Shown: positions 8,187-26,058 of the stretch, piece after piece
Layout of the letters: each line of letters starts with the position of its first letter
Position numbering within the stretch: the stretch's first letter is position 1
Source: Betaproteobacteria bacterium
GTDB taxonomy: Bacteria; Pseudomonadota; Gammaproteobacteria; Burkholderiales; SG8-41
Reading direction: 5' to 3'
Assembly (NCBI GenBank): GCA_947486575.1
Contig: CANKUB010000043.1
Coordinates: forward strand, 1 to 34,362
Length of the DNA stretch: 34,362 bases
Made by a program: the position numbers and the translations under genes
Notes under the pieces: generated by a model
Seen by the model: the letters and a program-made list of their open reading frames with translations, nothing else
Database searches by the model: none
What the model was told of the DNA's origin: nothing

Positions 8187-9167
8187 TCAGGCCGACACTT
8201 GTTTTTGCGAGTACACCGGCACCAGGAAATCGTGGTTGATTTCCGCGGTCAGTTTGGATAATTTTTCGAGGAAGGCCATCAGATACTCATGTAACCCAAG
8301 CTCGATGATCTGCTCGGTGCGCCCATAGTGAAGCTGGGCATGCAGTTCGCCTGCCAGCCGCTCGGCTTCAATGGACGAATCATCACACAGGCTTTTGAGA
8401 ATATCGTAGATGTCGTTCATGCACGCATGCAGTGACCGCGGCACATCCTGGCGCAGTACCAGTAACTCCGTCACCTTGGTTGGTGTGATCAGATCACGAT
8501 AAACCTTGCGATAGGCGTCGAAAGCGCTGAGCGAGCGCAGCAAGGCGCTCCACTGATAGTAGTCAACCGCTCCGCCGACATCGGCTGCGCTTGGCAGCAG
8601 CGTGTGGTACTTGACGTCCAGCAGGCGCGCGGTATTGTCTGCGCGTTCGACAAAGGTTCCCAGGCGAATAAAACTGTAGGCCTCATCGCGCAGCATGGTG
8701 CCGAAGGTAATGCCGCGAAACTGATGCGAGCGCAATTTCACCCAGTCAAAAAAGGCGCTCACGCCACTGCCGTGAAGGCGGCCGTAGTCCTGATTGCGCA
8801 TTTCCAGCCAGGATGTATTGATGTCTTCATACATCTCGGCGGTAATGGCGCCTCGTTCGGTGCGCGCGTTTTCCCGCGCAGCCTGTATGCACGAATATAA
8901 ACTCGACGAATTGGCAGGCTCCAGCACCATGAAGCGAAGCACGTTATCCGAGCTAATCGGCCCCGGATAGCGTTCATAGTAGGCGCTGGCAAGGCCGTTG
9001 ATTACCAGCGGCAGTGCCCACGGTTCCGCCCATGTTTGATCTGATTCCTGAACGCGGTAGGGCAGCAGCGACATGCGATACGTCACATCCAGCAGACGCG
9101 CGGTATTTTCAGCGCGCTCAATGTGGCGGGACATCCAGTAAAGATTATTGGCGGATCGCGATAGCAT
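8187..9167 (-). CDS. Alpha-E domain-containing protein (DUF403)
   Basis: A mostly helical soluble protein of 326 residues, the normal length for alpha-E proteins. It begins MLSRSANNLYWMSRHIERAEN and repeats the R-x-x-N-TARLLDV pattern twice (ERAENTARLLDV, then VERADNTARLLDV), which is characteristic. Alpha-E proteins are almost always encoded beside a circularly permuted ATP-grasp ligase and a transglutaminase-like protein and are thought to help in peptide synthesis, although the biochemical role is not established. The ATG at 9167 lies 5 nt after the ATP-grasp stop codon, with GGAG inside the end of that gene, so translation is probably coupled. No degradation or frameshift is seen here, unlike its upstream partner. 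Confidence 0.93.
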   Translation of the reverse strand: MLSRSANNLYWMSRHIERAENTARLLDVTYRMSLLPYRVQESDQTWAEPWALPLVINGLASAYYERYPGPISSDNVLRFMVLEPANSSSLYSCIQAARENARTERGAITAEMYEDINTSWLEMRNQDYGRLHGSGVSAFFDWVKLRSHQFRGITFGTMLRDEAYSFIRLGTFVERADNTARLLDVKYHTLLPSAADVGGAVDYYQWSALLRSLSAFDAYRKVYRDLITPTKVTELLVLRQDVPRSLHACMNDIYDILKSLCDDSSIEAERLAGELHAQLHYGRTEQIIELGLHEYLMAFLEKLSKLTAEINHDFLVPVYSQKQVSA

Positions 9168-9172
9168 GGCGA

Positions 9173-10662
9173 TTAATCTCCGGCCTCAAGTATCCAGGTG
9201 TCTTTGGTTCCGCCGCCCTGCGATGAGTTGACCACGAGTGAACCTTCACGCAGCGCCACGCGCGTCAGTCCGCCCGGCACCAATGTGACGGTTTTACCGG
9301 ATAGCACATAGGGCCGCAAATCGACATGTCGCGGCGCGATGCCTGCATCGCAGTATGTCGGGCAGGTTGAGAGTGCCAGCGTAGGCTGTGCAATGTAGTT
9401 CGCCGGGTTATGCAGGATGCGGTCGCGAAAATCGGCGATTTGCCCGGTGGTTGACGCAGGCCCGACCAGCATACCGTATCCCCCCGAACCCTGAACCTCT
9501 TTGACGACCAGTTCAGATAGATGGTCAAGAACGTATTTCAGGTCGTCAGCGCGGTCCAGTCGATAGGTTGGAACATTGGCGATGATCGGTTCTTCACCAA
9601 GATAAAAGCGAATCATCTCCGGCACGTAAATATAGGTTGATTTGTCATCGGCAACGCCTGTGCCAATGGCGTTGGCCAGGGTCACTTTGCCTGCGCGATA
9701 CGCCGCGAACAGGCCCGGCACCCCAACGATGGAATCTGCGCGAAATGCCTGGGGATCAAGAAAGTCGTCATCAACCCGGCGGTAAATCACATCCACGCGT
9801 TTAGGACCGCGAGTAGTGCGCATATAGACCGCATCATTGGTGACCAATAGGTCTTGACCCTCGACCAGTTCCACGCCCATCTGCTGCGCGAGAAATGCAT
9901 GTTCGAAGTAGGCGCTGTTGTAGCTGCCGGGTGTGAGCACGACTACCGTCGGATTGGGCGCGCCGGCAGGGGCTACCGCGCGCAGATCGTCCAGCAAAAC
10001 ATCGGTGTAGTGATCTACTGGCGCAACCGGCATGCGCGCGAACAGTTCCGGGAACAGTCGCATCATCATCTTGCGGTTTTCCAGCATATACGACACGCCG
10101 GACGGGGTACGCAGATTGTCTTCGAGCACGTAAAATTTATCTTGATCAGTCTTTACGATATCAATGCCCGCAACATGCACATACACATCACCAGGGACAT
10201 TGAATCCGCGCATTTCCGGACGATAAAGTTTATTGCCGAGCACCTGCTGCTCGGGGATTTTCCCGGCCTTGATGATCTCCTGATCGTGATAAATGTCTTT
10301 CAGGAACGCATTCAGCGCACGCACGCGCTGGCACGCACGCGCTGGCACGCACCGTCGGAAATGGTTTTCCATGCCTGTGCACGAATAATGCGCGGAATAA
10401 TGTCAAAAGGTATTGAGCGTTCGACACCGCCTTCATCACCGTAAACGGCAAAGGTAATGCCAAGCCGGGTAAACAGCGTGTCCGCCTCACGCTGCTTTTG
10501 CTTGATGAAATCCAGCGGCTTGTCTTTCAGCCAGGCCGAGTAGGGCAGGTAATGCGAGCGCACCTCAGTGTCGTCGCGATACATCTCGTTGTAGAAAACT
10601 GATCCACTCACGGTGTTGCCCCAAGTTTGCGCAGAATAAATACGCTCGTGTAACAGCAGCAA
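9173..10662 (-). pseudogene. Circularly permuted ATP-grasp protein (DUF404/DUF407), split by a 14-bp repeat expansion
   Basis: First gene of the Anbu operon. The N-terminal part (10662 down to 10312) reads [49 protein letters not shown], then ends in ...[14 protein letters not shown]-stop. The rest (10372 down to 9173) resumes in another frame as [22 protein letters not shown] and runs through ATP-grasp motifs ([52 protein letters not shown]) to the normal C-terminus. The break falls in a 14-bp tandem repeat at 10317-10351. Removing one unit joins the halves as [14 protein letters not shown], which matches the expected family sequence. The enzyme would ligate an amino acid or peptide using ATP. 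No other lesion is visible, so the change may be recent, phase-variable, or a sequencing or assembly error. The true start is uncertain: TTG 10662, GTG 10611 or ATG 10584. Confidence 0.88.
10317..10351. repeat. 14-bp tandem repeat, 2.5 copies, causing a frameshift
   Basis: GCACGCACGCGCTG occurs at 10317-10330 and 10331-10344, followed by half a unit (GCACGCA, 10345-10351). Because 14 is not a multiple of 3, each gain or loss of a unit changes the reading frame of the ATP-grasp gene. The version with one unit fewer restores the full-length protein. Confidence 0.9.
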
Positions 10663-15462: not shown

Positions 15463-16203
15463 ATGACGTATTGTGTAGCAGCAGTTACGGGTGACGGCAT
15501 TGTTTTTGCCTCGGATTCGCGTACCAATGCCGGCGTTGACCAGTTGGGTACATTCAGCAAGATGACGGTGATCGAATCGCCGGATGATCGCGTGATTGTG
15601 TTGCTGTGCGCCGGCAATCTGGCCTCCACGCAAAGTGTGATCAGCCTGCTGAAGTTGCGCATGAAAGATGAGACCGGGGAGATTGACCCAAAGGGTATTC
15701 TCGGCCTGCGCAGTCTCTACGATGTGGCGGCATTGGTAGGCGACACCATGCGCGAGGTAGTAACGCGTGACGGCGCGGCGTTGACGCAGCAGAATATTGA
15801 TCCTGGCTGCACGTTTCTGCTGGGCGGGCAGATAAAGGGCAAGGCACAAAGATTGTTCCTGATCTATCCACAGGGTAATTTTATTGAATCAAGCCGTGAT
15901 ACCAATTTTTTCCAGATCGGCGAAACCAAGTACGGTAAGCCGATTATTGACCGCGTTGTGCGTTTCGAAACGTCGTTGAAGGACGTGGCCAAGTGTCTGC
16001 TTGTGTCGTTCAACTCCACCATGCGCAGTAACCTTTCCGTCGGTCCGCCGATAGATCTGCTGGCCTATGAAAAAGACACGATGCGGGTAACCTTGCGCCA
16101 GCGCTTTACTGATAATGACGCGTATTTTTCGGAGATCGGTAAATACTGGTCAGCGGGCTTGCGCCGCATATTTGCCGAAGCGCCCGATGTACCCTGGAAC
16201 TAA
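15463..16203 (+). CDS. Anbu proteasome-type peptidase, copy 2
   Basis: A 246-residue paralogue of the Anbu protein at 7344-8099, with long identical stretches (FASDSRTNAGVDQ, GKPIIDRVV against GKPVIDRVV, STMRSN). Catalytic residues are all retained: Thr1 after Met removal (TYCVAAV), Asp17 (ASDSRT) and Lys32 (FSKM). It differs by a longer central loop (LKLRMKDETGEIDPKGILG) and by ending at ...APDVPWN, without the acidic tail of copy 1. It is not in the Anbu operon but heads a rightward gene train, 42 nt before a flavin monooxygenase-like gene. The Shine-Dalgarno region is weak (GGGGCGGG about 10 nt upstream). It could form separate or mixed oligomers with copy 1; this is inference. Confidence 0.92.
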   Translation: MTYCVAAVTGDGIVFASDSRTNAGVDQLGTFSKMTVIESPDDRVIVLLCAGNLASTQSVISLLKLRMKDETGEIDPKGILGLRSLYDVAALVGDTMREVVTRDGAALTQQNIDPGCTFLLGGQIKGKAQRLFLIYPQGNFIESSRDTNFFQIGETKYGKPIIDRVVRFETSLKDVAKCLLVSFNSTMRSNLSVGPPIDLLAYEKDTMRVTLRQRFTDNDAYFSEIGKYWSAGLRRIFAEAPDVPWN

Positions 16204-16245
16204 ATTAGAAATCAATCCATTGGAACAATTTTCCCGAGAATAACC

Positions 16246-17481
16246 ATGCCCGATTCGGTCGCCGCAAAATCCAAAAAAACGAAGTCGCATCAACGTAAGT
16301 CCGTGGCCGACGTCGATTATCACGAAGCCATGCGCCGGGCCAAGGCGATGATTCCCTTCCTCAAGGCGAATGCCGAAGCGCAGGAAAAGACCACACACAT
16401 GACCGATGCCGTGAAGAACGCGTTTCATGAAAACGGTTTGTTCCGCTACATGCAGCCGAAGTATTGGGGGGGCATGGAGTTGCCGTACGTCTCGATGGTC
16501 GATCTAAACGTTACGCTGGGGCAGGGCGACGCTTCGGCGGCGTGGACGTTCACCAATCTCGGCGGTCATCACCGACTGTTGTCGCTATGGCCTATGGAAT
16601 GCCAGGAGGAAGTCTGGGGCGACGACCCTGATGTGGGCATTGCTTCGGGCATTGCGTATTTTCAGGGACGCGGGCGGCGCGTCGATGGCGGGCTGGAGCT
16701 TTCCGGTAAATGGGGGTTTTCGTCAGGTGTCGATGTCAGTGACTGGAATATGCTCGCCTGCGTAGTGTACGACGGCGACAAACCGGTTGATTGGGTGATG
16801 AACATGGTGCCGCGCAAGGATTACGAAATCATCGACGACTGGCAGACGCTGGGCATGCGCGGCACTGGCAGCCGCTCAGTGAAGATCGAAAAAGCCTTTG
16901 TGCCCGCGCATCGCGTGTGCTCGATGGCGGTGGCCATGCCTGGGCATGAGTTTCCCGGATTGCGGGTTCACAAGAATCCGATTTACAAAATTCCGCTGGC
17001 CGGGTTTGGCGGCTACGGTATCGGCGGTTGCATGATTGGTAACGCGCAGGGCGCGCTGGATGAAGTGATTGAACACGTGAAGGCGCGCAGCACCGCCTAC
17101 ACCGGCGCGAAAATGCGCGATTTTCAGTCGGTGCAGTACCGCGTGTCGCTGGCGGCGGGCAAGATCGATGCCGCGCATCAATGGCTGCGGCATGACTGCA
17201 TAGAGGCCAACGATCTGGTCAATGCGGGCGGTACGTTCGATACACTGACGAAAATCAAATATCGGCGCAATGCTGCGATAGCCTGCAAAATGGTTACCGA
17301 GGCGGTGGATCTGTTGCACGAAATGATGGGCGCACACGGTATTTACGACAGCGCGCCACTGCAGCGCCGGTTCCGCGACGCACACGCGGCGGCTGGCCAC
17401 ATCAATTTCAATATGGATACGCAATTGCCGCAGTGGGGACAGGTGGCGCTGGGCGGGGAATATAAAAGCCCTACGTTTTAA
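16246..17481 (+). CDS. Acyl-CoA dehydrogenase-fold flavin-dependent monooxygenase-like protein, copy 1
   Basis: A 411-residue protein of the acyl-CoA dehydrogenase superfamily. The branch looks like the two-component group D flavin monooxygenases (HpaH/HsaA type) rather than true dehydrogenases. Seen are the N-terminal helical domain (YHEAMRRAKAMIPFLKANAEA), the central beta-domain WGFSSGVDVSDWNMLACVVYDG with YEIIDDWQTLGMRGTGSRSVKIEKAFVP, and the C-terminal four-helix domain ending AHAAAGHINFNMDTQLPQWG. Enzymes of this group use reduced FMN or FAD supplied by a separate reductase, and no reductase gene is in the window. A close paralogue lies at 23097-24302, and a Bug gene follows 10 nt after the stop. 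The substrate is unknown; oxygenation of an aromatic or heterocyclic compound is a reasonable guess. Confidence 0.87.
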   Translation: MPDSVAAKSKKTKSHQRKSVADVDYHEAMRRAKAMIPFLKANAEAQEKTTHMTDAVKNAFHENGLFRYMQPKYWGGMELPYVSMVDLNVTLGQGDASAAWTFTNLGGHHRLLSLWPMECQEEVWGDDPDVGIASGIAYFQGRGRRVDGGLELSGKWGFSSGVDVSDWNMLACVVYDGDKPVDWVMNMVPRKDYEIIDDWQTLGMRGTGSRSVKIEKAFVPAHRVCSMAVAMPGHEFPGLRVHKNPIYKIPLAGFGGYGIGGCMIGNAQGALDEVIEHVKARSTAYTGAKMRDFQSVQYRVSLAAGKIDAAHQWLRHDCIEANDLVNAGGTFDTLTKIKYRRNAAIACKMVTEAVDLLHEMMGAHGIYDSAPLQRRFRDAHAAAGHINFNMDTQLPQWGQVALGGEYKSPTF

Positions 17482-17491
17482 CGGTAACACT

Positions 17492-18469
17492 ATGTTTTTA
17501 TTAAGAAAATTATCACTGCCTCTTGTGGGCCTGATGCTGGCGGTGGGTGTGGGACAAGCGCGCTCGGCAGAAAATTATCCGCAACGTCCGGTGCGCATGA
17601 TTATTCCGTTTCCGCCTGCGGGCGCTGGCGACATTCTCGGGCGCATGTTGTCAGCACGGCTCACTGAAACTTTCGGCCAGCAATTCGTCAACGATAACCG
17701 GCCCGGTGGCGGCAATGTCATTGCCTCTGAACTGACGGTGCGCGCCAATCCCGATGGTTACACTTTGTTTATCGCCAGCGCGACGCACGCCATCAATCCT
17801 GCACTGCTGAAAAAACTGCCGTACGATTCGATCAAAGACTTTACCTTCATCACGCTGCTGGCGGATTCGCCATTGCTGTGTGTGGCGAACCCCGCGCTGG
17901 GTGCGGCCAATCTCAAGGAATTTATTGCCATTGCGAAATCCCGGCCGGGCAAGATCAATTACGCGTCCTCGGGGCCAGGAACCGGCGGGCATCTGGCGGT
18001 GGAGTTGATCAAGTTCAATGCGGGCATCGACATGGTTCACGTGCCGTACAAAGGCGCAGGGCCGGCACTGACGGATGTGATCGCCGGGCAATTGCAGTTC
18101 ATGTGCACCAGTCCGCTGGCGGTGCTGCCGCTCGCCAAAAGCGGACGCCTGCGCGCGATGGCGATGACCAGTGCTAAACGTTCTCGCGCCGCGCCTGAAA
18201 TTCCCACGGTGGCTGAGCAGGGATTTCCGGGGTATCAGGCGTCGCTGTGGTATCAAATGCTGGCGCCCGCGAATTTGCCCGAGTCGATCGTGAAGCGATT
18301 AAACAGCGAAATCAATCGCGTATTGAAGCTGCCGGATTTTGTCGAGCAGTTGGCAATACAAGGTGGCGAGCCACTGGGTGGTACGCCGCAGGAAGCCCGC
18401 CGCTACACGCAAGTAGAGATTGAGCGTTGGCTGAATCTGATCAAAAAAACCAGTATCAGCGCGCAGTAA
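17492..18469 (+). CDS. Bug/TctC family substrate-binding protein
   Basis: A periplasmic receptor of 325 residues. The signal peptide is MFLLRKLSLPLVGLMLAVGVGQARS-AENY, followed by YPQRPVRMIIPFPPAGAGDILGR, NDNRPGGGNVIASE, PDGYTLFIASATHAINPAL and HVPYKGAGPALTDVIAGQ. It lies 10 nt after the flavin monooxygenase-like gene and 21 nt before the selenoprotein gene, so it is probably co-transcribed and binds the compound handled by this cluster. The start codon sits inside a degenerate copy of the AT-rich repeat (17485-17502), and there is no clear Shine-Dalgarno. No membrane partner is present. Confidence 0.93.
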   Translation: MFLLRKLSLPLVGLMLAVGVGQARSAENYPQRPVRMIIPFPPAGAGDILGRMLSARLTETFGQQFVNDNRPGGGNVIASELTVRANPDGYTLFIASATHAINPALLKKLPYDSIKDFTFITLLADSPLLCVANPALGAANLKEFIAIAKSRPGKINYASSGPGTGGHLAVELIKFNAGIDMVHVPYKGAGPALTDVIAGQLQFMCTSPLAVLPLAKSGRLRAMAMTSAKRSRAAPEIPTVAEQGFPGYQASLWYQMLAPANLPESIVKRLNSEINRVLKLPDFVEQLAIQGGEPLGGTPQEARRYTQVEIERWLNLIKKTSISAQ

Positions 18470-18490
18470 CAAGTCAGCCAAGGAGCCTAA

Positions 18491-19042
18491 ATGACCGCCA
18501 GCATCATTCTTTACGACCCCACTGCGCCTCGTGCAAAAGTGCCGAGCCAGGTGGAAACCGCCAAGCCCACCCTCGATACGCTCGCGGGCAAGGTGGTCGG
18601 TTTTATCGATAACGCCAAGCCGAATTTCAATCACCTTGCTGACGACATCGGTGAGTTGTTGATGAGCAAGTATGGTGTAAAGCAGGTGCTGAAACGCCGC
18701 AAACGCGCCGCCTCGGTGCCCGCGCCGGATGCCGTATACAGGGAATTTGTCGAGCAATGCGACTTGGTGATTACCGGGTCGGGGGACTGAGGCTCCTGCA
18801 CGTCGTGGAGTATCCACGACAGTGTAGAGATGGCCAAACGCGGCAAGGCTGCGGTGACCATTTGCTCGACGGCGTTCAAAACATTGGGCCATGCACAGGC
18901 TTCCGCGCTGGGTAAAAAAGATTTGCCCATCGCGGTAATGCCGCATCCGTTCGGACTGCGCAAACGCGACGAAGTGCGTGCCATTGCGGAAAAATGCGCC
19001 GATGACATTGCGCAGTTGATGACCAAGACAGGTTCGAAATGA
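18491..19042 (+). CDS. UGSC-family selenoprotein (in-frame UGA read as selenocysteine)
   Basis: Two halves, 18491-18787 and 18791-19042, lie in the same frame and are separated only by TGA at 18788-18790. Read through, they give 183 residues: an N-terminal region (LAGKVVGFIDNAKPNFNHLADDI, LLMSKYGVKQVLKRRK), then CDLVITGSGD-Sec100-GSCTSWSIHDSVEMAKRG, then LPIAVMPHPFGLRKRDEVRAIAE. Sec-Gly-Ser-Cys is the diagnostic motif of the UGSC (seleno)protein family, in which other members have Cys at this site; it would form a selenenylsulfide-type redox pair. AAGGAG lies 5 nt before the ATG, a SECIS-like stem-loop lies at 18797-18826, and the final TGA overlaps the next gene's ATG, which shows that the second half is translated. 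The biochemical role is unknown. A TGC-to-TGA error is the main alternative. Confidence 0.88.
18797..18826 (+). promoter_or_regulatory. Predicted bacterial SECIS element
   Basis: Downstream of the UGA, GTCGTGG (18802-18808) pairs perfectly with CCACGAC (18814-18820) around loop AGTAT. The stem extends below through TGCAC (18797-18801) with GTGTA (18822-18826), with one bulged A at 18821, giving 12 pairs including one G-U. The apical loop starts 18 nt after the UGA and has G at its second position, both within the ranges described for bacterial SECIS elements that recruit SelB. Confidence 0.7.
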
Positions 19043-20088
19043 CTCAATTGAGTACCCCGGCGACAACCTTTGAAGCGCTCGACGATCTCGACGCGATCAA
19101 TAAACTTTACCGCGAGCGCCGCTGGAGCGACGGGCTGCCCATCGTGCCACCAACGCAAGAGCGCTTGGCGCGTATGCTGGCGAGTAGCAAACGCAAGCCG
19201 GATGAAGTCATCGCCATGCTGCCGCCGGGCTTCGGTGAGGCGACGGTTGAACGCATTGCGATCAACGCGGTGATGGCCGGTTGCGATCCGGAATATTTGC
19301 CAGTGCTGATCGCCGCGACGGATGCCGTGGCGCAGGCGCAATTTAATATTCAGGGCATCGAAGCCACCACCAATTCGGCGACGGTGTGGCTGGTGCTGAA
19401 CGGGCCTATCGTCAAGCAGCTTGAGGTTAACGCCACGTTTAACTGCCTGGGCCAGGGTGCCTGGGCGAATGCAACCCTGGGCCGTGCCATGCGGTTGATC
19501 CTGCAAAACATCGGCGGTGCGCTCCCCGGCGATATGGATCGTGCCACACAGGGCCAGCCCGCGAAATACACCTTTTGCTGCGGTGAAAACGAGGCGCAAA
19601 GCCCGTGGGAGCCATTGCACGTCGAGCGTGGTTTTTCGCGCGAGACCAGTACCGTGACGGTGGTGGCCGCCGAAGGTACGATGAACATGAACACACATTC
19701 CAAGGATGCGTCCGAATTGCTGCGCGTGATCGCGGAGACGCTGGTGCATCCAACCAGCAACGAGTATTGTCATGGCGGTGAGCCGTGGATTGTGTTCGCG
19801 CCGGAACATGCGGACATTCTCAAGGCGGGCGGTTTGAGCAAACGCGACGTGAAGCAGCGCTTGTGGGAACTCAGCAAAATGCCCGCAGGCCGCCTGTCCG
19901 TAAAGGAGATGTTGCGCGCGCAGGCCTCACGCGCAGATGAATACGGCGACATCAAGCCCGAAACATTACTGACAATTTCACGCTCGCCGGACGACATCTG
20001 GTTTATCGTCGCAGGCGGGCCGGGCACACATTCCGTTTATGTGCCGTGCTTCGGCAACTCGCGTGCGGTAACGCGAGAAATAATATAA
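19039..20088 (+). CDS. Conserved protein of unknown function, partner of the UGSC selenoprotein
   Basis: A soluble 349-residue protein with no signal peptide or membrane segment. I recognise it only as a conserved family encoded next to UGSC proteins; no enzymatic function is known to me. Visible features are YRERRWSDGLPIVPPTQERL at the N-terminus, MAGCDPEYLPVLIAA, IEATTNSATVWLVLNGPI, YTFCCGENEAQSPWEPLHVERGF with a Cys pair followed by Gly-Glu-Asn, TVTVVAAEGTMNMN, and EYCHGGEPWIVFAPEHADIL. The Cys residues could exchange electrons or bind substrate with the selenoprotein. The ATG overlaps the selenoprotein stop by 4 nt (ATGA), implying coupled translation and a stoichiometric complex. A Bug gene follows after 23 nt. 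Confidence 0.8.
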   Translation: MTQLSTPATTFEALDDLDAINKLYRERRWSDGLPIVPPTQERLARMLASSKRKPDEVIAMLPPGFGEATVERIAINAVMAGCDPEYLPVLIAATDAVAQAQFNIQGIEATTNSATVWLVLNGPIVKQLEVNATFNCLGQGAWANATLGRAMRLILQNIGGALPGDMDRATQGQPAKYTFCCGENEAQSPWEPLHVERGFSRETSTVTVVAAEGTMNMNTHSKDASELLRVIAETLVHPTSNEYCHGGEPWIVFAPEHADILKAGGLSKRDVKQRLWELSKMPAGRLSVKEMLRAQASRADEYGDIKPETLLTISRSPDDIWFIVAGGPGTHSVYVPCFGNSRAVTREII

Positions 20089-20111
20089 CCATTTGTTTTT
20101 AAAGGAATTTC

Positions 20112-21086
20112 ATGATTTTCGGTAAAATGGTTCTGGGAATGATTGTAACGATGGGCGCAATGTTGGCTGCCCCGGCGGGTGCGCAGTACGCGGATTATCC
20201 GAATCGCCCGATACGGCTGATTACGCCCGCGCAGCCCGGCGGCACTACAGACATTCTCGCGCGCATGTTTGGCATCAGATTGACCGAAAGTCTCAAGCAG
20301 CAAATCGTGGTGGACAATCGTGCCAGCGCGTCTGGCGTGATCGCCGGAGAGTTGACGGCGAAGGCGCTGCCTGACGGCTACACCATCTTCATGGCGTATC
20401 ACCAGCATACGGTGAATGCCGCGCTGAATCCCAGACTGCCCTACCACGCTGTTAACGACTTCACGCCGATATCGCAACTGACGCGAGCGGGCCTGATCCT
20501 GGTGGTCAATCCATCTTCGCCGCCGAAGAATCTCAAAGAATTCATCGACTGGACCAAAAATTTCAAGGGCGCGCTCAACTTTGGTTCGGCGGGTGCAGGC
20601 AGCGGCGGCCATCTCGCAGGTGAACTGTATAACCTTGCGATGAAAATCAAGGCGCAGCACATTCCGTACAAAGGTTCCGCGCCATCGCTGATTGATCTGG
20701 TGGCCGGTCAATATCACTACAATTTCGTGGGCATGCTTGCGGCGCAGGCGCTGGTTAAAGGTGGCAAGTTGCGAGCGCTGGCAGTGACAGCGCCCAAGCG
20801 TGTGCCGTCCTATGGCGACCTGCCTGCCATGAACGAGCAGGTGCCGGGTTTTGAAGTGGTCGGATGGTATGGCGTGATGGCGCCGCCGAATCTGCCGAAA
20901 CCGCTGGTCGCTAGACTGCATGGCGAATTGGTGAAGGTCGTCAAGTTGAAGGACATCAGCGATCGCATCTATGCAGACGGTGCAGAACCGGTTGGCAGCG
21001 AGCCAGAAGCGTTTCGCCAGTATCTGCTGGACGATCTGGCGAAGTGGGCACGGCTGGTCAAAGAAAGCGGCGCGAAGCTGGATTGA
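20112..21086 (+). CDS. Bug/TctC family substrate-binding protein
   Basis: A periplasmic receptor of 324 residues. The signal peptide is MIFGKMVLGMIVTMGAMLAAPAGA-QYAD, then YPNRPIRLITPAQPGGTTDILAR, VDNRASASGVIAGE (the usual NRPGAG varies here to NRASAS), PDGYTIFMAYHQHTVNAAL and HIPYKGSAPSLIDLVAGQYHYNF. The altered NRASAS loop lines the ligand pocket in this family, so the ligand may differ from those of the neighbouring paralogues. AAGGAA sits 6 nt before the ATG. It lies between the selenoprotein partner and the metallo-beta-lactamase-fold gene in the same train. Confidence 0.93.
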   Translation: MIFGKMVLGMIVTMGAMLAAPAGAQYADYPNRPIRLITPAQPGGTTDILARMFGIRLTESLKQQIVVDNRASASGVIAGELTAKALPDGYTIFMAYHQHTVNAALNPRLPYHAVNDFTPISQLTRAGLILVVNPSSPPKNLKEFIDWTKNFKGALNFGSAGAGSGGHLAGELYNLAMKIKAQHIPYKGSAPSLIDLVAGQYHYNFVGMLAAQALVKGGKLRALAVTAPKRVPSYGDLPAMNEQVPGFEVVGWYGVMAPPNLPKPLVARLHGELVKVVKLKDISDRIYADGAEPVGSEPEAFRQYLLDDLAKWARLVKESGAKLD

Positions 21087-21119
21087 TTTTGTTGCAATTG
21101 TTTTTGGGGAGGCGTGACT

Positions 21120-22070
21120 ATGCGGTTTAAATTCATGTTTGCGTGCGTGCTTGCGTTGGGTCTACCGGTGACGCATGCTCAAACCACTGCCGATGGCACT
21201 GTGCGGGAAAAATTTGTGCCGATCACGGTGACGGAGGTTGCTCCGGGTTTGTTTTTTCAATACCACCATCAAGAGTCGAACAATGCCTGGCTGGTCACCG
21301 ACGACGGCGTGCTGGTGATCGACTCGCGCCAGCACCCGAAACGTGCCGAGGAATTGCTGGCGGCCATCCGGAAAACCACGGATAAGCCGATCCGCTATGT
21401 GATCAATACGCATGCGCATGGCGATCATTATTTTGGCAATCCGGTGTTCAAGCGCGAAGGCGCGACGTTCATTGCGCATCGGGATACGCAGCGCATGATG
21501 CAGGCGCATCACGGCGCGGAAATGAAGCGGCGCACCGGCTATTTCAAGCAAACGCAGTTTGATCCGGCAGAAGTCAGGCTGGTGTTGCCGGATGTCACGT
21601 TCGATTCAAAGCTCACGCTGCATCTCGGCGGACGCACGGTGGAACTGCTGTATCTGGGCGCAGGCCAAAACCCGGGTGACACGCTGGTCTACTTCCCGAA
21701 GGAAAAGGTGATTTTCTCCGGCGGGCCCTTCTCGAAAAACAGTTGGGCCAATCCGCAGTTCACGCCGTCACTGGCGAACTGGGTAGACCTGCTGCGCAAG
21801 GTTGCGGCCATGGATATCGACCAGTATCTCGGCGGCCACGGCGACATTGGTGCAAAGCAGGATGTGCTCAATGAGGCACAGATGCTGTCAGATTTTGACG
21901 CGGGCATGCGCGCCGCTGTGAAAAAAGGCCTGAGCCGTGAGGAGATTTTCAAGAGCGCGCCGTTCGAAAAATACAAGGATGTGCGCAACTACTACCGCAT
22001 GAACCTGTTTATCAACAGCTACTATCACCTCCTGACGACCGGCAAGCCAGAGGTAGCGCTCCCCGACTAG
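21120..22070 (+). CDS. Exported metallo-beta-lactamase-fold protein with an altered metal site
   Basis: A 316-residue MBL-fold protein with an N-terminal signal peptide (MRFKFMFACVLALGLPVTHA-QTT), so probably periplasmic. The first zinc motif is intact (INTHAHGDHYFGN), and a late His is present in YLGGHGDIG. The third His normally found in 'G..HTPGDT' is replaced (GAGQNPGDTLVYFP), and the metal-bridging Asp of 'FTGD' is replaced by Gly (VIFSGGPFSK). Such proteins are usually hydrolases of esters, lactones or thioesters; this subgroup may bind one metal or use a different ligand set. The ATG at 21120 follows a GGGGAGG ribosome-binding site; an in-frame GTG lies two codons upstream. It is flanked by Bug genes in the same direction, suggesting it processes the imported compound. 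Confidence 0.87.
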   Translation: MRFKFMFACVLALGLPVTHAQTTADGTVREKFVPITVTEVAPGLFFQYHHQESNNAWLVTDDGVLVIDSRQHPKRAEELLAAIRKTTDKPIRYVINTHAHGDHYFGNPVFKREGATFIAHRDTQRMMQAHHGAEMKRRTGYFKQTQFDPAEVRLVLPDVTFDSKLTLHLGGRTVELLYLGAGQNPGDTLVYFPKEKVIFSGGPFSKNSWANPQFTPSLANWVDLLRKVAAMDIDQYLGGHGDIGAKQDVLNEAQMLSDFDAGMRAAVKKGLSREEIFKSAPFEKYKDVRNYYRMNLFINSYYHLLTTGKPEVALPD

Positions 22071-22105
22071 CCGAGTTGCGAAATTTCAATCGCAGGGAAC
22101 ATTCG

Positions 22106-23083
22106 ATGAAAATCCATAGATATATTGCGACGGCGATGTTGCTTGCCGCTGGCGCTACCCAACTGTCCGGCGCCGCGATGGCGCAATCCTCATCCACGCG
22201 ACCGATACGCCTGTTGCTCGCCTATCCGCCCGGTGCGGGCAACGATACCAATGCGCGCGCCGTGGCCGCGAAGATGACGGACAACATGAAGCAGCAGGTG
22301 ATTGTGGACAACCGGCCCGGTGCCAACGGCATCGTTGCGACGACCGTACTGGCGCGCGCAACGCCCGATGGACACACGCTGATGGCGATAGACGTGGCGC
22401 ACACCGCAAATCCGGCGCTCTACGACAAAATCCCGTATGACACGCTGAAGGATTTCGAATCGATTGGCATGATCGCACGCGTGCCGATGATCCTGCTGGT
22501 GCATCCGGCGCAGCCGTTTAAATCCGTCAGGGATCTGGTGACCTACGCCAAAGCCAACGCGGGCAAGCTGAACTACGGTTCCGCAGGTGTGGGCAGCGCA
22601 ATGTATCTGGTAGCAGAATTGTTTAAGGAGGCCGCCAGTATCGACGTGGTGCAGATCGCCTACAAAGGCGGTGCCCCCGCGCTGATTGAGTTGGCGGGCG
22701 GCCAGCTGCCGATGGCGTTTATTTCATTGATAGCGGGCATGCCAATGGTGCAAAACGGTCGCGCGCGTGTGCTCGGCGTAAGCAGCTTGCAGCGCGCGCC
22801 CGGCTTTCCTGATCTGCCGACGATTGCCGAATCGGGCGTGCCGGGTTTTGAGTTTTATTTGTGGCAGGGCATCATCGGCCCTGCGGGATTGACCCGCGCG
22901 ACCGTAACGCGCTTGAACACAGAACTCAATAGCGCGCTGTCCAATGCCGACGTGAAGGAACGCATGATTCAGGCCGGCAATGAATTGATGGGTGGCACGC
23001 CGAAGCAGGCCGATGGTTTTATTCGCGACGAGGTGGCACGCTGGAAACGGATCATCAAACCGGAAATGCGCTTGAGTCGGTAA
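22106..23083 (+). CDS. Bug/TctC family substrate-binding protein
   Basis: A periplasmic receptor of 325 residues from the ATG at 22106, which has AGGGA 7 nt upstream; a longer frame starting with TTG at 22076 is less likely. The signal peptide is MKIHRYIATAMLLAAGATQLSGAAMA-QSS, then RPIRLLLAYPPGAGNDTNARAVA, VDNRPGANGIVATT, PDGHTLMAIDVAHTANPAL and QIAYKGGAPALIELAGGQLPM. It is the third Bug gene in the train and lies just ahead of the second flavin monooxygenase-like gene. Ligand unknown. Confidence 0.93.
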   Translation: MKIHRYIATAMLLAAGATQLSGAAMAQSSSTRPIRLLLAYPPGAGNDTNARAVAAKMTDNMKQQVIVDNRPGANGIVATTVLARATPDGHTLMAIDVAHTANPALYDKIPYDTLKDFESIGMIARVPMILLVHPAQPFKSVRDLVTYAKANAGKLNYGSAGVGSAMYLVAELFKEAASIDVVQIAYKGGAPALIELAGGQLPMAFISLIAGMPMVQNGRARVLGVSSLQRAPGFPDLPTIAESGVPGFEFYLWQGIIGPAGLTRATVTRLNTELNSALSNADVKERMIQAGNELMGGTPKQADGFIRDEVARWKRIIKPEMRLSR

Positions 23084-23096
23084 TTTGAGGCAAACC

Positions 23097-24302
23097 TTGA
23101 CTGCACTTCATCAGCACAATGATTTTTCCAATGTCACCTACGACGAGGCGCTGCGACGCGCGCAGGATCTGATTCCTTTTCTGCGTGAACACGCGCCTGC
23201 CGCCGAACGCGCCACACGCATGTTGCCGGAAGTGGAAGCAGCACTGCATCGCAGCGGGTTATTCCGCTACCACCAGCCGAAAGTGTGGGGCGGCATGGAG
23301 CTGGATTTCGTCGCCTATGTCGATATCCCCGAAATGCTGGCGCGTGGCGATTGCTCGGTGGGCTGGAACGTGGCCAACCTGAGTTCGCATCATCGCAACG
23401 TCGCTCATTTTTGTGAGGCGGCGCAACAGGAAATGTGGGGTGAAAACCGCGATTGTCTGATTGCGTCGGGTATCGCTTTTGCCCAGGGCCGTGGCGTAGC
23501 GGTGGCGGGTGGCATCCAGCTCAGCGGTCGCTGGTCGTTCAGTTCCGGTGTGGATGTGGCGCAGTGGAATATGCTTGCGTGCCAATTGCGCGAGGGCGAT
23601 CAGATCATTGATTATCTTTACTGCATGGTGCCGCGTGCACAGTATGAAATCATCGATGACTGGCAGACGCTGGGCATGCGCGGTACTGGCAGCCGCTCGG
23701 TGCAGTGCGAGAACGTATTCGTGCCCACGCATCGCACGCAATCCATGTACGCTTCCAAGCCCGGACACGAATTTCCGGGGCTGCGTATCCATACCAATCC
23801 GACATTCAAAGTGCCGGCATCGTCGCTGGGCGGGCATTGCATCGCGGGCGCGATTGTCGGCAATGCGCAGGCTGCAGTGGATGCCACCATTGAGATGGTC
23901 AAATCACGCAGCACCAGTTACACCGGCGCCAAAATGCGTGATTTTCAGAGTGTGCAATTGCGCGTGGGCGCGGCGGCGGCCAAGGTGGATGCCGCACGTC
24001 TGGTGCTGCGCAATGATTGCCTGCAGGCCGATGCGCTGGTGAAGGCTGGCAAGACGCTTGATCTTGAGGCCAAAGTGCGCAACAAGCGCAATGGCGTGAC
24101 GGCGGTCAGGTGGTGTGTTGAGGCCGTAGATTCCCTGGTGGAAATGGCGGGCGCCAATGGCATTTACGACAGCGCGCCGTTGCAGCGCATGTTTCGCGAT
24201 GCCCATGCGGCAGCAGCGCACATCAATTTTAATGTGGATGTGCAGTTGACGCCGTGGGCGCTGGTCAAGTTTGGCGGCGAATTCAAGTCGCCTGTAATGT
24301 AG
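23097..24302 (+). CDS. Acyl-CoA dehydrogenase-fold flavin-dependent monooxygenase-like protein, copy 2
   Basis: About 401 residues, a clear paralogue of the protein at 16246-17481. Identical runs include YEIIDDWQTLGMRGTGSRSV, YTGAKMRDFQSVQ and GIYDSAPLQR, and length and domain order are the same. Several substrate-side segments differ (for example GDCSVGWNVANLSSHHRNVAHF), so it may act on a later intermediate or pair with copy 1. No ATG lies near the start of the homologous region. TTG at 23097 is preferred because TTGAGG precedes it with about 6 nt spacing; TTG at 23085 would add four residues. A separate flavin reductase would be needed, and none is seen. The gene follows a Bug gene closely and is followed by a CocE-like hydrolase. 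Confidence 0.86.
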   Translation: MTALHQHNDFSNVTYDEALRRAQDLIPFLREHAPAAERATRMLPEVEAALHRSGLFRYHQPKVWGGMELDFVAYVDIPEMLARGDCSVGWNVANLSSHHRNVAHFCEAAQQEMWGENRDCLIASGIAFAQGRGVAVAGGIQLSGRWSFSSGVDVAQWNMLACQLREGDQIIDYLYCMVPRAQYEIIDDWQTLGMRGTGSRSVQCENVFVPTHRTQSMYASKPGHEFPGLRIHTNPTFKVPASSLGGHCIAGAIVGNAQAAVDATIEMVKSRSTSYTGAKMRDFQSVQLRVGAAAAKVDAARLVLRNDCLQADALVKAGKTLDLEAKVRNKRNGVTAVRWCVEAVDSLVEMAGANGIYDSAPLQRMFRDAHAAAAHINFNVDVQLTPWALVKFGGEFKSPVM

Positions 24303-24321
24303 TTCTACACGACTCCAAAAG

Positions 24322-26058
24322 ATGAAACCAATGAAAAGCGAAATTCGTGACGGCATGCAAATCGATTGGGACGCACCGATCACCATGGACGACGGTGTGG
24401 TGATGCGCGCCGATGTATTTCGGCCCGTGGGCAATGGCACATGCCCGGCGATCATCAGCTACGGCCCCTATGCCAAAGGCCTGTCTTTTCAGGAGGGCTA
24501 CAAGAGTCAGTGGACGCGGCTGGAGAAAGCCGTGCCCGAGATGCTCAAGGATTCGTCCAACAAATACCAGAACTGGGAACTGGTCGATCCCGAGAGATGG
24601 GTGCCTGATGGTTACGCGGTGGTACGCGTGGATTCACGTGGCGCGGGACGTTCGCCCGGGGTGATTGATAGCTGGTCGGCGCGCGAGGCGCAGGATTTTT
24701 ATCACTGCATCGAATGGGCAGGCACGCAGCCGTGGAGTAACGGCAAGGTCGGTATCAACGGCATTTCGTATTACGCCATGAACCAATGGCAGGTGGGCGC
24801 ATTGCAGCCGCCACATCTTGCTGCCATGTGCATTTGGGAAGGTGCCTCCGACTACTATCGTGACTTGAGTCGGCACGGCGGCATCCTGTGCGACTTTTTG
24901 AACTCCTGGTACAACCGCCAGGTGCTCACCGTGCAGTACGGCTTGGGCGATCGCGGCTCAAAGAGTGTGGTGACAGGTGAACCGATTGCCGGACCGGATA
25001 ACTATACCGACGAGCAGCTCAAACAGAACCGCGCCGATGTAGACGGCGAAGCGCTGCGTCGCCCGCTCATCGACGATTACTACCGCAAGCGCATGGTGGA
25101 TTTTTCGAAGATCACAGTGCCGTTTCTTTCAGCAGGCAACTGGGGTGGGCAGGGTCTGCACCCGCGTGGCAACTTCGAAGGCTATCTGCGTGCCGCGTCG
25201 GAGCAGAAGTGGCTGGAGGTGCACGGCGACACGCACTTCACCCATTTCTACAGCCGCTATGGTGAAGGCCTGCAACGAAAATTCTTCGCACATTTTCTGA
25301 AAGGCGAAAAATCAGGCTGGGACGATCAGCCCAAGGTGTCGCTCAATGTACGCTGGCCCGGCGAAAAATTCCTGTTGCGTGCGGAAAACGAATGGCCGTT
25401 GGCGCGCACGCAGTGGACACCTTTCTACCTGCATCAGGATGATTTGCGTTTGAGTGCGGATAAAAATAGTTCAATAAAAACAATAAGTTACGAAACGTCA
25501 GGTGATGGCCTGACGTTTCTGTCAGCGCCCGTGACCAGCGACCTTGAAATCACCGGCCCGGTGGCTGCGAAAATATGGCTGTCTTCCGAAACCGCCGACG
25601 CAGATGTGTTCGTGGCGCTGCGTGTGTTTGACCCGGCAGGCAAGGAGGTGGTGTATGTCGGCTCCAACGATCCGCGTACGCCGGTTGGGCTGGGCTGGCT
25701 GCGTGCGTCGCAGCGCAAGCTGGATCAGAAAGAGAGCAAGCCGTATCGTCCATGGCACACGCACGATACAGTGCAGCCCCTTGCACCCGGCGTGCCGGTG
25801 GAACTCGATGTTGAAATTTGGCCAACCTCGATTGTTGTGCCCGTGGGCTTTCGGCTGGCGTTCACCGTGCGCGGCAAGGACTATGAGTTTGACGGCACTG
25901 ATGCGGGTGTAGCGCATGCACCCTATCCGATGAAAGGTGTGGGGCCGTTCACGCATACGCTGGATCGGCCCAAATCAATTTTCGGCGGGAAGAATACCTT
26001 GCATTTTGCCGACGGGAAAATGCCGTATGTGTTGTTGCCAGTGGTACCGGGACGATAG
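24322..26058 (+). CDS. CocE/NonD family hydrolase (X-Pro dipeptidyl-peptidase S15-like)
   Basis: A 578-residue alpha/beta-hydrolase with the S15/CocE arrangement. The hydrolase core holds Ser149 in GINGISYYAMNQW as nucleophile, VVRVDSRGAGRSPG before it, and a His near GDTHFTHFYSRY as the probable base. A helical insertion follows, then a C-terminal jelly-roll domain (LEITGPVAAKIWLSSETADADVFVALRVFDP). CocE-type enzymes cleave esters or amides, as in cocaine esterase. No signal peptide is present, so action is cytoplasmic. It is the last gene of the rightward train and may open an ester or amide in the imported compound. Codons at 25464-25490 are unusually AT-rich because the gene contains an exact antisense copy of the dispersed repeat (peptide NSSIKTIS). 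ATGs at 24322 and 24331 are both possible starts. Confidence 0.9.
   Translation: MKPMKSEIRDGMQIDWDAPITMDDGVVMRADVFRPVGNGTCPAIISYGPYAKGLSFQEGYKSQWTRLEKAVPEMLKDSSNKYQNWELVDPERWVPDGYAVVRVDSRGAGRSPGVIDSWSAREAQDFYHCIEWAGTQPWSNGKVGINGISYYAMNQWQVGALQPPHLAAMCIWEGASDYYRDLSRHGGILCDFLNSWYNRQVLTVQYGLGDRGSKSVVTGEPIAGPDNYTDEQLKQNRADVDGEALRRPLIDDYYRKRMVDFSKITVPFLSAGNWGGQGLHPRGNFEGYLRAASEQKWLEVHGDTHFTHFYSRYGEGLQRKFFAHFLKGEKSGWDDQPKVSLNVRWPGEKFLLRAENEWPLARTQWTPFYLHQDDLRLSADKNSSIKTISYETSGDGLTFLSAPVTSDLEITGPVAAKIWLSSETADADVFVALRVFDPAGKEVVYVGSNDPRTPVGLGWLRASQRKLDQKESKPYRPWHTHDTVQPLAPGVPVELDVEIWPTSIVVPVGFRLAFTVRGKDYEFDGTDAGVAHAPYPMKGVGPFTHTLDRPKSIFGGKNTLHFADGKMPYVLLPVVPGR
25473..25490 (-). repeat. AT-rich dispersed repeat, copy 2 (exact, inside a CDS)
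   Basis: AATAAAAACAATAAGTTA is the exact reverse complement of the 18-bp repeat at 3961-3978 and 30530-30547. It lies inside the CocE-like gene and keeps the frame. Identity with the 30530 copy extends to about 21 bp. Confidence 0.6.

Follow-up and report, generated by a model that had tools for sequence, protein, structure and literature searches.

A forward-strand gene at 18491–19042 of the window, which is the whole 34,362-nucleotide stretch of betaproteobacterial DNA that was analyzed, encodes a 183-residue member of the UGSC family with a predicted alpha/beta fold, in which an in-frame TGA at 18788–18790 most likely encodes selenocysteine (Sec) at residue 100. The family itself is known, and the interest lies in the expansion of its copies within this genome and in their pairing with a second protein, encoded here by the adjoining forward-strand gene at 19039–20088. 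We give about even chances to the reading that the two proteins form a substrate-specific reductase, fed by a thioredoxin reductase (TrxB), which would work like glycine or proline reductase with Sec at the TGA. An SECIS hairpin, 16 other copies of the gene, the partner protein, a link to thioredoxin reductase, and a fold are added here to what the preliminary description of this DNA had contained.

Probable selenocysteine decoding of the in-frame TGA

The preliminary description had reported two same-frame halves split by one TGA with U-G-S-C at the junction, and reading TGA as a residue indeed yielded a single 183-residue frame with one internal TGA in the context ITGSGDUGSCTSWS. The Shine-Dalgarno sequence that it had placed before the first half was located as AAGGAG at 18480–18485, 5 nt ahead of the ATG, and the ATGA overlap that it had described with the next gene was recovered at 19039–19042, where the UGSC gene ends with TGA at 19040–19042 and the next open reading frame begins at 19039. 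Its assignment to the UGSC family was borne out by two profiles, both of whose matches span the TGA: the joined protein scored 165.7 bits against PF24696, the Pfam UGSC family (E value, 1.5e-48; cut-off, 25), and 127.2 bits against NF041046, barely above the cut-off of 125. Across 64 sequences the U/C-G-x-C motif, which is UGSC at residues 100 to 103 in this protein, was invariant at U/C100, G101, and C103.

The search for Sec machinery that had been suggested earlier was carried out on the genome (5.35 Mb, 98% complete), and selA, selB, tRNA-Sec, and selD were all present. The selA (579 bits) and selB (455 bits) genes adjoin each other, the tRNA-Sec (77.7 bits, also detected by ARAGORN) has the anticodon TCA, and selD (426 bits) lies on contig C248. 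The active site encoded by selD, GGGUGCK, itself contains a TGA, and the selenium donor is therefore likely to be a selenoprotein as well.

The TGA is conserved among relatives. It occupies the Sec site in all 97 UGSC genes of 80 related loci from GTDB, which were the best 80 of 159 and bear titles that are mostly uncultured Betaproteobacteria or Burkholderiales; one of the two patterns used in this search included Cys, and the search was thus open to Cys forms. A codon-by-codon comparison with 8 of the 12 closest orthologues found TGA at the site in all 8, with 28 to 41 synonymous versus 8 to 19 nonsynonymous codon changes before the TGA and 17 to 29 versus 5 to 14 after it. We read this synonymous excess on both sides, in raw counts, as suggesting purifying selection. 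Relatives containing Cys, of which the preliminary description had also spoken, were found with TGC or TGT at the site. Two genomes with a Cys codon lack selA (G241 and G372, the latter having a 19-bit, sub-threshold selA match), and selA occurs together with TGA in G237, G064, and G071. The apparent correlation between selA and the codon is not perfect, the exceptions being G061, where selA accompanies TGC, and two genomes with TGA in which no selA was found, G026 (92% complete) and G050 (72% complete). Among 11 places scanned for the motif, a site was read at 10 loci, with none at L207 and the same site at L213 and L215.

A candidate bacterial SECIS element follows the TGA. Its upper hairpin (18802–18820, forward strand) consists of an 8-bp stem and a GUA loop located 19 nt after the UGA, within an extended fold at 18791–18835, and it displays every bacterial SECIS criterion given in the portions of PMC13188914 consulted. 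The folding energy of the DNA following the TGA was −25.1 kcal/mol (z = −5.1 versus dinucleotide shuffles), a stability that none of 1,000 synonymous recodings matched (mean, −12.5). For 103 distinct sequences, 757 pairs were counted versus 493 expected under synonymous recoding (sd, 14; highest of 300 draws, 547). Taken by itself, the exact 8-pair register was reached by 1,360 of 20,000 synonymous recodings, and because it arises so often in this way the SECIS claim rests on the energy test and the 103-sequence sum. In 11 paralogues chosen from the 17 of this genome, a set that excludes five with a weak hairpin or one in another register as well as one that a contig end truncates, 96.6% of cells pair and the covariation score was 0.177, a value as high as which was seen in none of 500 shuffles; the number of pairs changed on both sides was two, which 31 of 500 shuffles reached.

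Seven or eight of the 8 pairs form in 97 of 113 sequences. Of the 16 with fewer than seven, ten pair in a stem displaced by one position, and the registers tried revealed no clear stem in six. Where CTP follows the motif (11 sequences), a displaced stem of 5 to 7 bp is usual, with one exception; the remaining five, four of them of the GSCAT type, lack a clear stem in those registers. The z value of −1.7 for the class labeled "GSCA (C153-like)" should not be taken for the value of the C153 type, since this class mixes GSCAT-type sequences with GSCAS sequences that do pair. Two Cys relatives showed no excess stability after the site (z = −0.3 and −0.9), and an Rfam search of the SECIS region returned no match.

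At the level of sequence, then, Sec decoding appears to be established; the reading of the TGA as a true stop, with the standard-code frames at 18491–18790 and 18830–19042 being a pseudogene or two short genes, is already contradicted by the TGA in 97 of 97 relatives' genes, the synonymous excess on either side of it, the hairpin that follows it, the complete sel machinery, and the TGA at the same site in 17 paralogues of this genome, and we hold it to be extremely improbable. The earlier expectation that gene callers split such genes also proved correct, in that the Paracoccus ferrooxidans UGSC gene is annotated as two hypothetical proteins and a hypothetical protein of 96 aa stands for the one in Acidovorax sp. 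T1; public annotation thus truncates or splits at least some UGSC genes.

Copy number and the partner protein

Above the cut-off, the genome contains 17 UGSC matches; a single internal TGA interrupts each of them, and the motif U-G-S/A/T/G-C is present in all 17, one of which is truncated by a contig end. An eighteenth hit was dropped; it was below the cut-off, had no TGA, and resembled an unrelated flavoprotein. UGSC matches were found in 63 of 100 relatives searched: in all 60 genomes of the same family, this one included, and in 3 of 40 genomes from other families of the order. Counts within the family ranged from 1 to at least 31 matches per genome; since some 31 candidates per genome were scored, the high counts are possible lower bounds, which fragments and contamination may also inflate. 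Every match listed for the relatives contains one TGA, and the per-genome figures count matches and not Sec sites, because a TGA within a match may lie off the Sec site. This is the case in G372 (locus L141), where the site is TGC, a TGA lies elsewhere, and the frame is broken; that gene may be a pseudogene or an assembly error. Among 299 genomes across the phylum, UGSC was present in 4, this one included, and the sites read were TGA in both genes of G237 and TGC in G241 and G372. Of 12 plasmids with UGSC, the Acidovorax plasmid and three Paracoccus records have TGA at the site and the other eight have TGC or TGT.

Several of these records have distinctive surroundings. In Acidovorax sp. T1, UGSC with TGA and the partner (8640–10193) are carried by p2-T1, a conjugative IncP plasmid, near IS1071 and IS91-like elements. 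In the three Paracoccus plasmid records (L178, L203, and L204), UGSC with TGA and the partner lie a few kilobases from selB, and in two haloarchaeal plasmids (L181 and L201), UGSC with the Cys codon TGT lies between two partner genes. Two further likely selenoproteins lie together at the end of a small contig of the present genome (C244): one frame is PrdB-like, with its TGA preceding PNC, and the other is OsmC-like and interrupted by a TGA. Metagenome-assembled genome records titled Bordetella parapertussis (L055, L056, and L058, among others) contain close orthologues that fall among those of uncultured betaproteobacteria, and the label looks like a submission error.

The partner encoded at 19039–20088 is a 349-residue protein that is recognized by a profile built for it and matches no Pfam or NCBIfam family; among 16 partner proteins, one touched DUF7889, with an E value of 0.18. 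In the present genome, the profile found the partner at 15 of 16 UGSC loci, in 17 copies, and 16 of the 17 UGSC genes have a partner fused to them (7) or adjacent, either downstream (5) or upstream (4). The remaining gene has no partner within its 9-kb contig (C171). In relatives, the partner accompanies 96 of 97 UGSC genes (39 fused, 54 downstream, and 3 upstream), the sole gene lacking it being located at a contig end, and in the sample of 299 genomes the partner and UGSC are confined to the same 4 genomes, this one included. At one locus (L049, 347–2458), a UGSC gene that is cut by the contig end follows two partner genes in tandem.

The two proteins also seem to have diverged together. The distances between UGSC sequences and between their partners correlated with r = 0.93 over 131 pairs, fused ones included (best of 500 permutations, 0.19), and with r = 0.86 over 16 pairs, fused ones included, within the present genome (best of 2,000 permutations, 0.46), as would be expected of cognate pairs that rarely swap partners. 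Pairing and co-divergence are, as judged from these sequence comparisons, well established. Invariant or nearly invariant positions of the partner include DG, PT, MAGC, GP, GR, N, E, and W.

Predicted fold, gene neighborhood, and proposed enzyme

The predicted UGSC model (pLDDT, 92.6) consists of five successive strand-helix units, with residue 100 placed directly before the helix formed by residues 101 to 116. Its neighbors in the PDB, with TM scores by query length of 0.29 to 0.50 for the best 50 of 1,758 hits, include proteins of three-layer alpha/beta architecture such as WrbA, flavodiiron and diflavin flavoproteins, lumazine synthase, and GTPases, and no thioredoxin is among those best 50. 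The fold is therefore predicted to be flavodoxin-like and not thioredoxin-like. A relative in which UGSC and the partner are fused was modeled with a pLDDT of 86.2 and a pTM of 0.88, and the Foldseek hits listed for it were of the same kinds as for the UGSC domain alone, with none pointing to the partner. PDB sequence searches with the UGSC, partner, and GRDB profiles returned nothing significant.

The UGSC gene and its partner are contained in a tightly packed forward-strand run at 15463–26058. The run is headed by a gene with a weak proteasome-family match (15463–16203; 25.2 bits, cut-off 22.4), followed by an HsaA-like flavin-dependent monooxygenase with an acyl-CoA dehydrogenase fold that scores under the HsaA cut-off (16246–17481) and, directly upstream of UGSC, a TctC (Bug-type) solute-binding protein (17492–18469). 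After the partner come a TctC protein (20112–21086), a metallo-beta-lactamase-fold hydrolase of superfamily PF00753 (21114–22070), another TctC protein (22076–23083), a second HsaA-like flavin monooxygenase (23085–24302), and a CocE/NonD family hydrolase that closes the run (24322–26058). The metallo-beta-lactamase-fold hydrolase was under the curated cut-off of the best 25 of the 48 NCBIfam models that it touched. Scans for sigma-70 promoters and terminators gave results no better than chance.

TctC proteins made up 21 of 57 close same-strand neighbors of UGSC, versus 7 of 57 random genes, a set that covered both strands. Their density was 1.96 per 10 kb near the UGSC genes of this genome (30 in 153 kb) and 1.52 per 10 kb near those of relatives (126 in 831 kb), versus 1.28 per 10 kb in the background of this genome (51 in 400 kb), where Bug-type solute-binding proteins are abundant throughout. 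The density excess is weak, and the neighbor-gene count is stronger.

A connection to thioredoxin reductase is supported by gene linkage that recurs in several unrelated organisms and is not universal. On contig C47 of the present genome the order is a UGSC/partner fusion on the other strand, selA, selB, a TrxB-like gene, tRNA-Sec, and a second UGSC/partner fusion; this TrxB-like protein scored 230 bits against TIGR01292, below the cut-off of 343, which two of the three TrxB-like proteins tested missed. In Arthrobacter the order is trxB-trxA-partner-UGSC, in Variovorax SRS16 trxB lies inside the UGSC run, as does a TrxB-like gene in V. boronicumulans, and in two records of Paracoccus versutus a TrxB-like gene follows selB a few kilobases from UGSC. 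A TrxB-like gene is located directly before UGSC in G237, in G241 one lies on the opposite strand at a distance of 2.7 kb, and the selA-selB loci of G020 and G064 carry one too. Within the stretches examined, such a gene was found at 7 of 21 UGSC loci of plasmids and distant genomes (two of the 7 being from the same species), at 1 of 16 loci of the present genome, and at 1 of the 80 from GTDB, and it was missing from 4 of the 7 loci that carry both selA and selB; 20 background stretches of the present genome (400 kb) contained none.

Under the reading that we prefer, UGSC and its partner would be a single two-part enzyme, often made as one fused chain. In this enzyme the U-G-S-C motif would place its Sec where a helix of a flavodoxin-like domain begins, this residue would attack or reduce a substrate bound between UGSC and the partner, and the Cys of the motif would resolve the resulting selenenylsulfide. 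A TrxB-like flavoprotein, acting directly or through thioredoxin, would then re-reduce the enzyme with NAD(P)H. Paralogous pairs would serve different substrates, probably of the carboxylate type, each within its own catabolic cluster, which here would consist of the two flavin monooxygenases, the CocE/NonD hydrolase, the metallo-beta-lactamase-fold hydrolase, and the three TctC uptake proteins. We infer the reductase chemistry, the substrate class, and the residue roles.

A UxxC motif and TrxB and TrxA genes as neighbors would also suit a general thiol/disulfide or peroxide-type oxidoreductase, with the partner being a protein that it keeps reduced or a peroxidase module, and the consulted portions of two sources lean in this direction, PMC2398784 calling the protein likely thioredoxin-like and PMC13188914 grouping UGSC with thioredoxin-fold proteins. 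The predicted model argues against this, resembling flavodoxin, lumazine synthase, and GTPases with no thioredoxin in the best 50 of 1,758 hits, as do the number of paralogues, 17 in this genome and at least 31 matches in a relative, and their co-divergence with the partners, neither of which a housekeeping redox protein should need; we put this alternative at perhaps half the likelihood of the reductase. Slightly less probable again is that the pair catalyzes a Sec-dependent lyase, isomerase, or transferase reaction of catabolism through a covalent adduct on Sec, in which case the only role of TrxB would be to restore Sec after its oxidation. The CoA transferases, enoyl-CoA hydratase, lyases, and hydrolases of the haloarchaeal surroundings and the conservation of DG, PPT, MAGC, GP, and GR in the partner would be in keeping with such chemistry, but the recurring TrxB linkage fits redox turnover better.

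A broader and more tentative possibility is that UGSC/partner pairs are a large, unrecognized class of substrate-specific selenoenzymes outside anaerobes with dissolved organic acids as substrates. This class would be a counterpart of glycine and proline reductases with a new combination of domains, a flavodoxin-like Sec domain plus the partner, and with reducing power from a TrxB retained in the sel operon. In one family of betaproteobacteria, which the titles of close relatives place in lakes and groundwater, the paralogous pairs, numbering from 17 to about 31 or more, would each serve a different dissolved organic acid, and selenium supply would therefore gate much of the carbon diet.

Comparison with known systems

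UGSC makes up 8.2% of the selenoprotein genes in aquatic metagenomes according to the portions of PMC9402790 consulted, and its function is listed as uncharacterized in those of a 2026 review (PMC13188914). The same review, in these portions, quotes 57 and 63 selenoproteins in total for the largest selenoproteomes; one family giving 17 selenoprotein genes makes for an unusual selenoproteome. The table of a 2016 survey (PMC5029168), as read, holds 33 UGSC sequences in 26 organisms, versus 17 in one genome and at least 31 matches in relatives here. In the portions of the UGSC literature covered by an incomplete search we met no mention of the copy number, of a partner gene with a name, of the link to TrxB, or of a fold like that of flavodoxin, and we cautiously regard the genomic context of UGSC as new. 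Given the partner, the co-divergence, the reductase neighbors, and the nonthioredoxin fold, UGSC is no longer an orphan and can be tested as an enzyme of two proteins. With a partner and many copies per genome, UGSC would therefore resemble a whole set of selenium-using enzymes.

The present protein agrees with the family defined by PF24696 and NF041046 in its full-length match across the Sec site, its UxxC motif, and the existence of both Sec and Cys forms. The Global Ocean Sampling (GOS) survey (PMC2398784) reported UGSC in fusion with a conserved but functionally unassigned domain, Unknown_1, which we infer to be the partner found here; a separate partner gene, regular pairing, and a TrxB link are not described in the text of that survey that was examined, and its thioredoxin-like fold guess is not supported by the present predicted model.

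GrdB and PrdB (PF07355) share the UxxC(xxC) Sec motif with UGSC and are parts of multi-part reductases, as the proposed UGSC enzyme would be, and trx genes are linked to grd operons. Thioredoxin is the reductant of glycine reductase in the consulted portions of PMC13188914. Homology to these proteins is attractive by eye (VDAVI..UxxC..LE..GIP) and was set aside, the profile comparisons and a null set of 341 proteins making it a suggestion at most, so that the likeness is used as an analogy only. Seven proteins searched against Pfam at E values up to 10 gave no match to GRDB (PF07355), which was also absent from the best 25 of 29 Pfam families matched by 64 UGSC members; hhalign of the UGSC and GRDB profiles gave a probability of 28% (E value, 6e-4), and five GRDB-type proteins ranked 6, 11, 38, 105, and 228 among the 341 mostly unrelated proteins. 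The pyruvoyl subunit Gly_reductase (PF09338) was matched by none of 16 partner proteins at E values up to 10 and was found in none of 299 genomes, in a search that returned nothing in controls either.

The UGSC selenoproteins of Geodermatophilaceae, described as having Sec at UAG in the portions of PMC5330540 consulted, belong to the same family and likewise use a recoded stop codon, whereas the codon here is UGA and is matched by a tRNA-Sec with the anticodon TCA.
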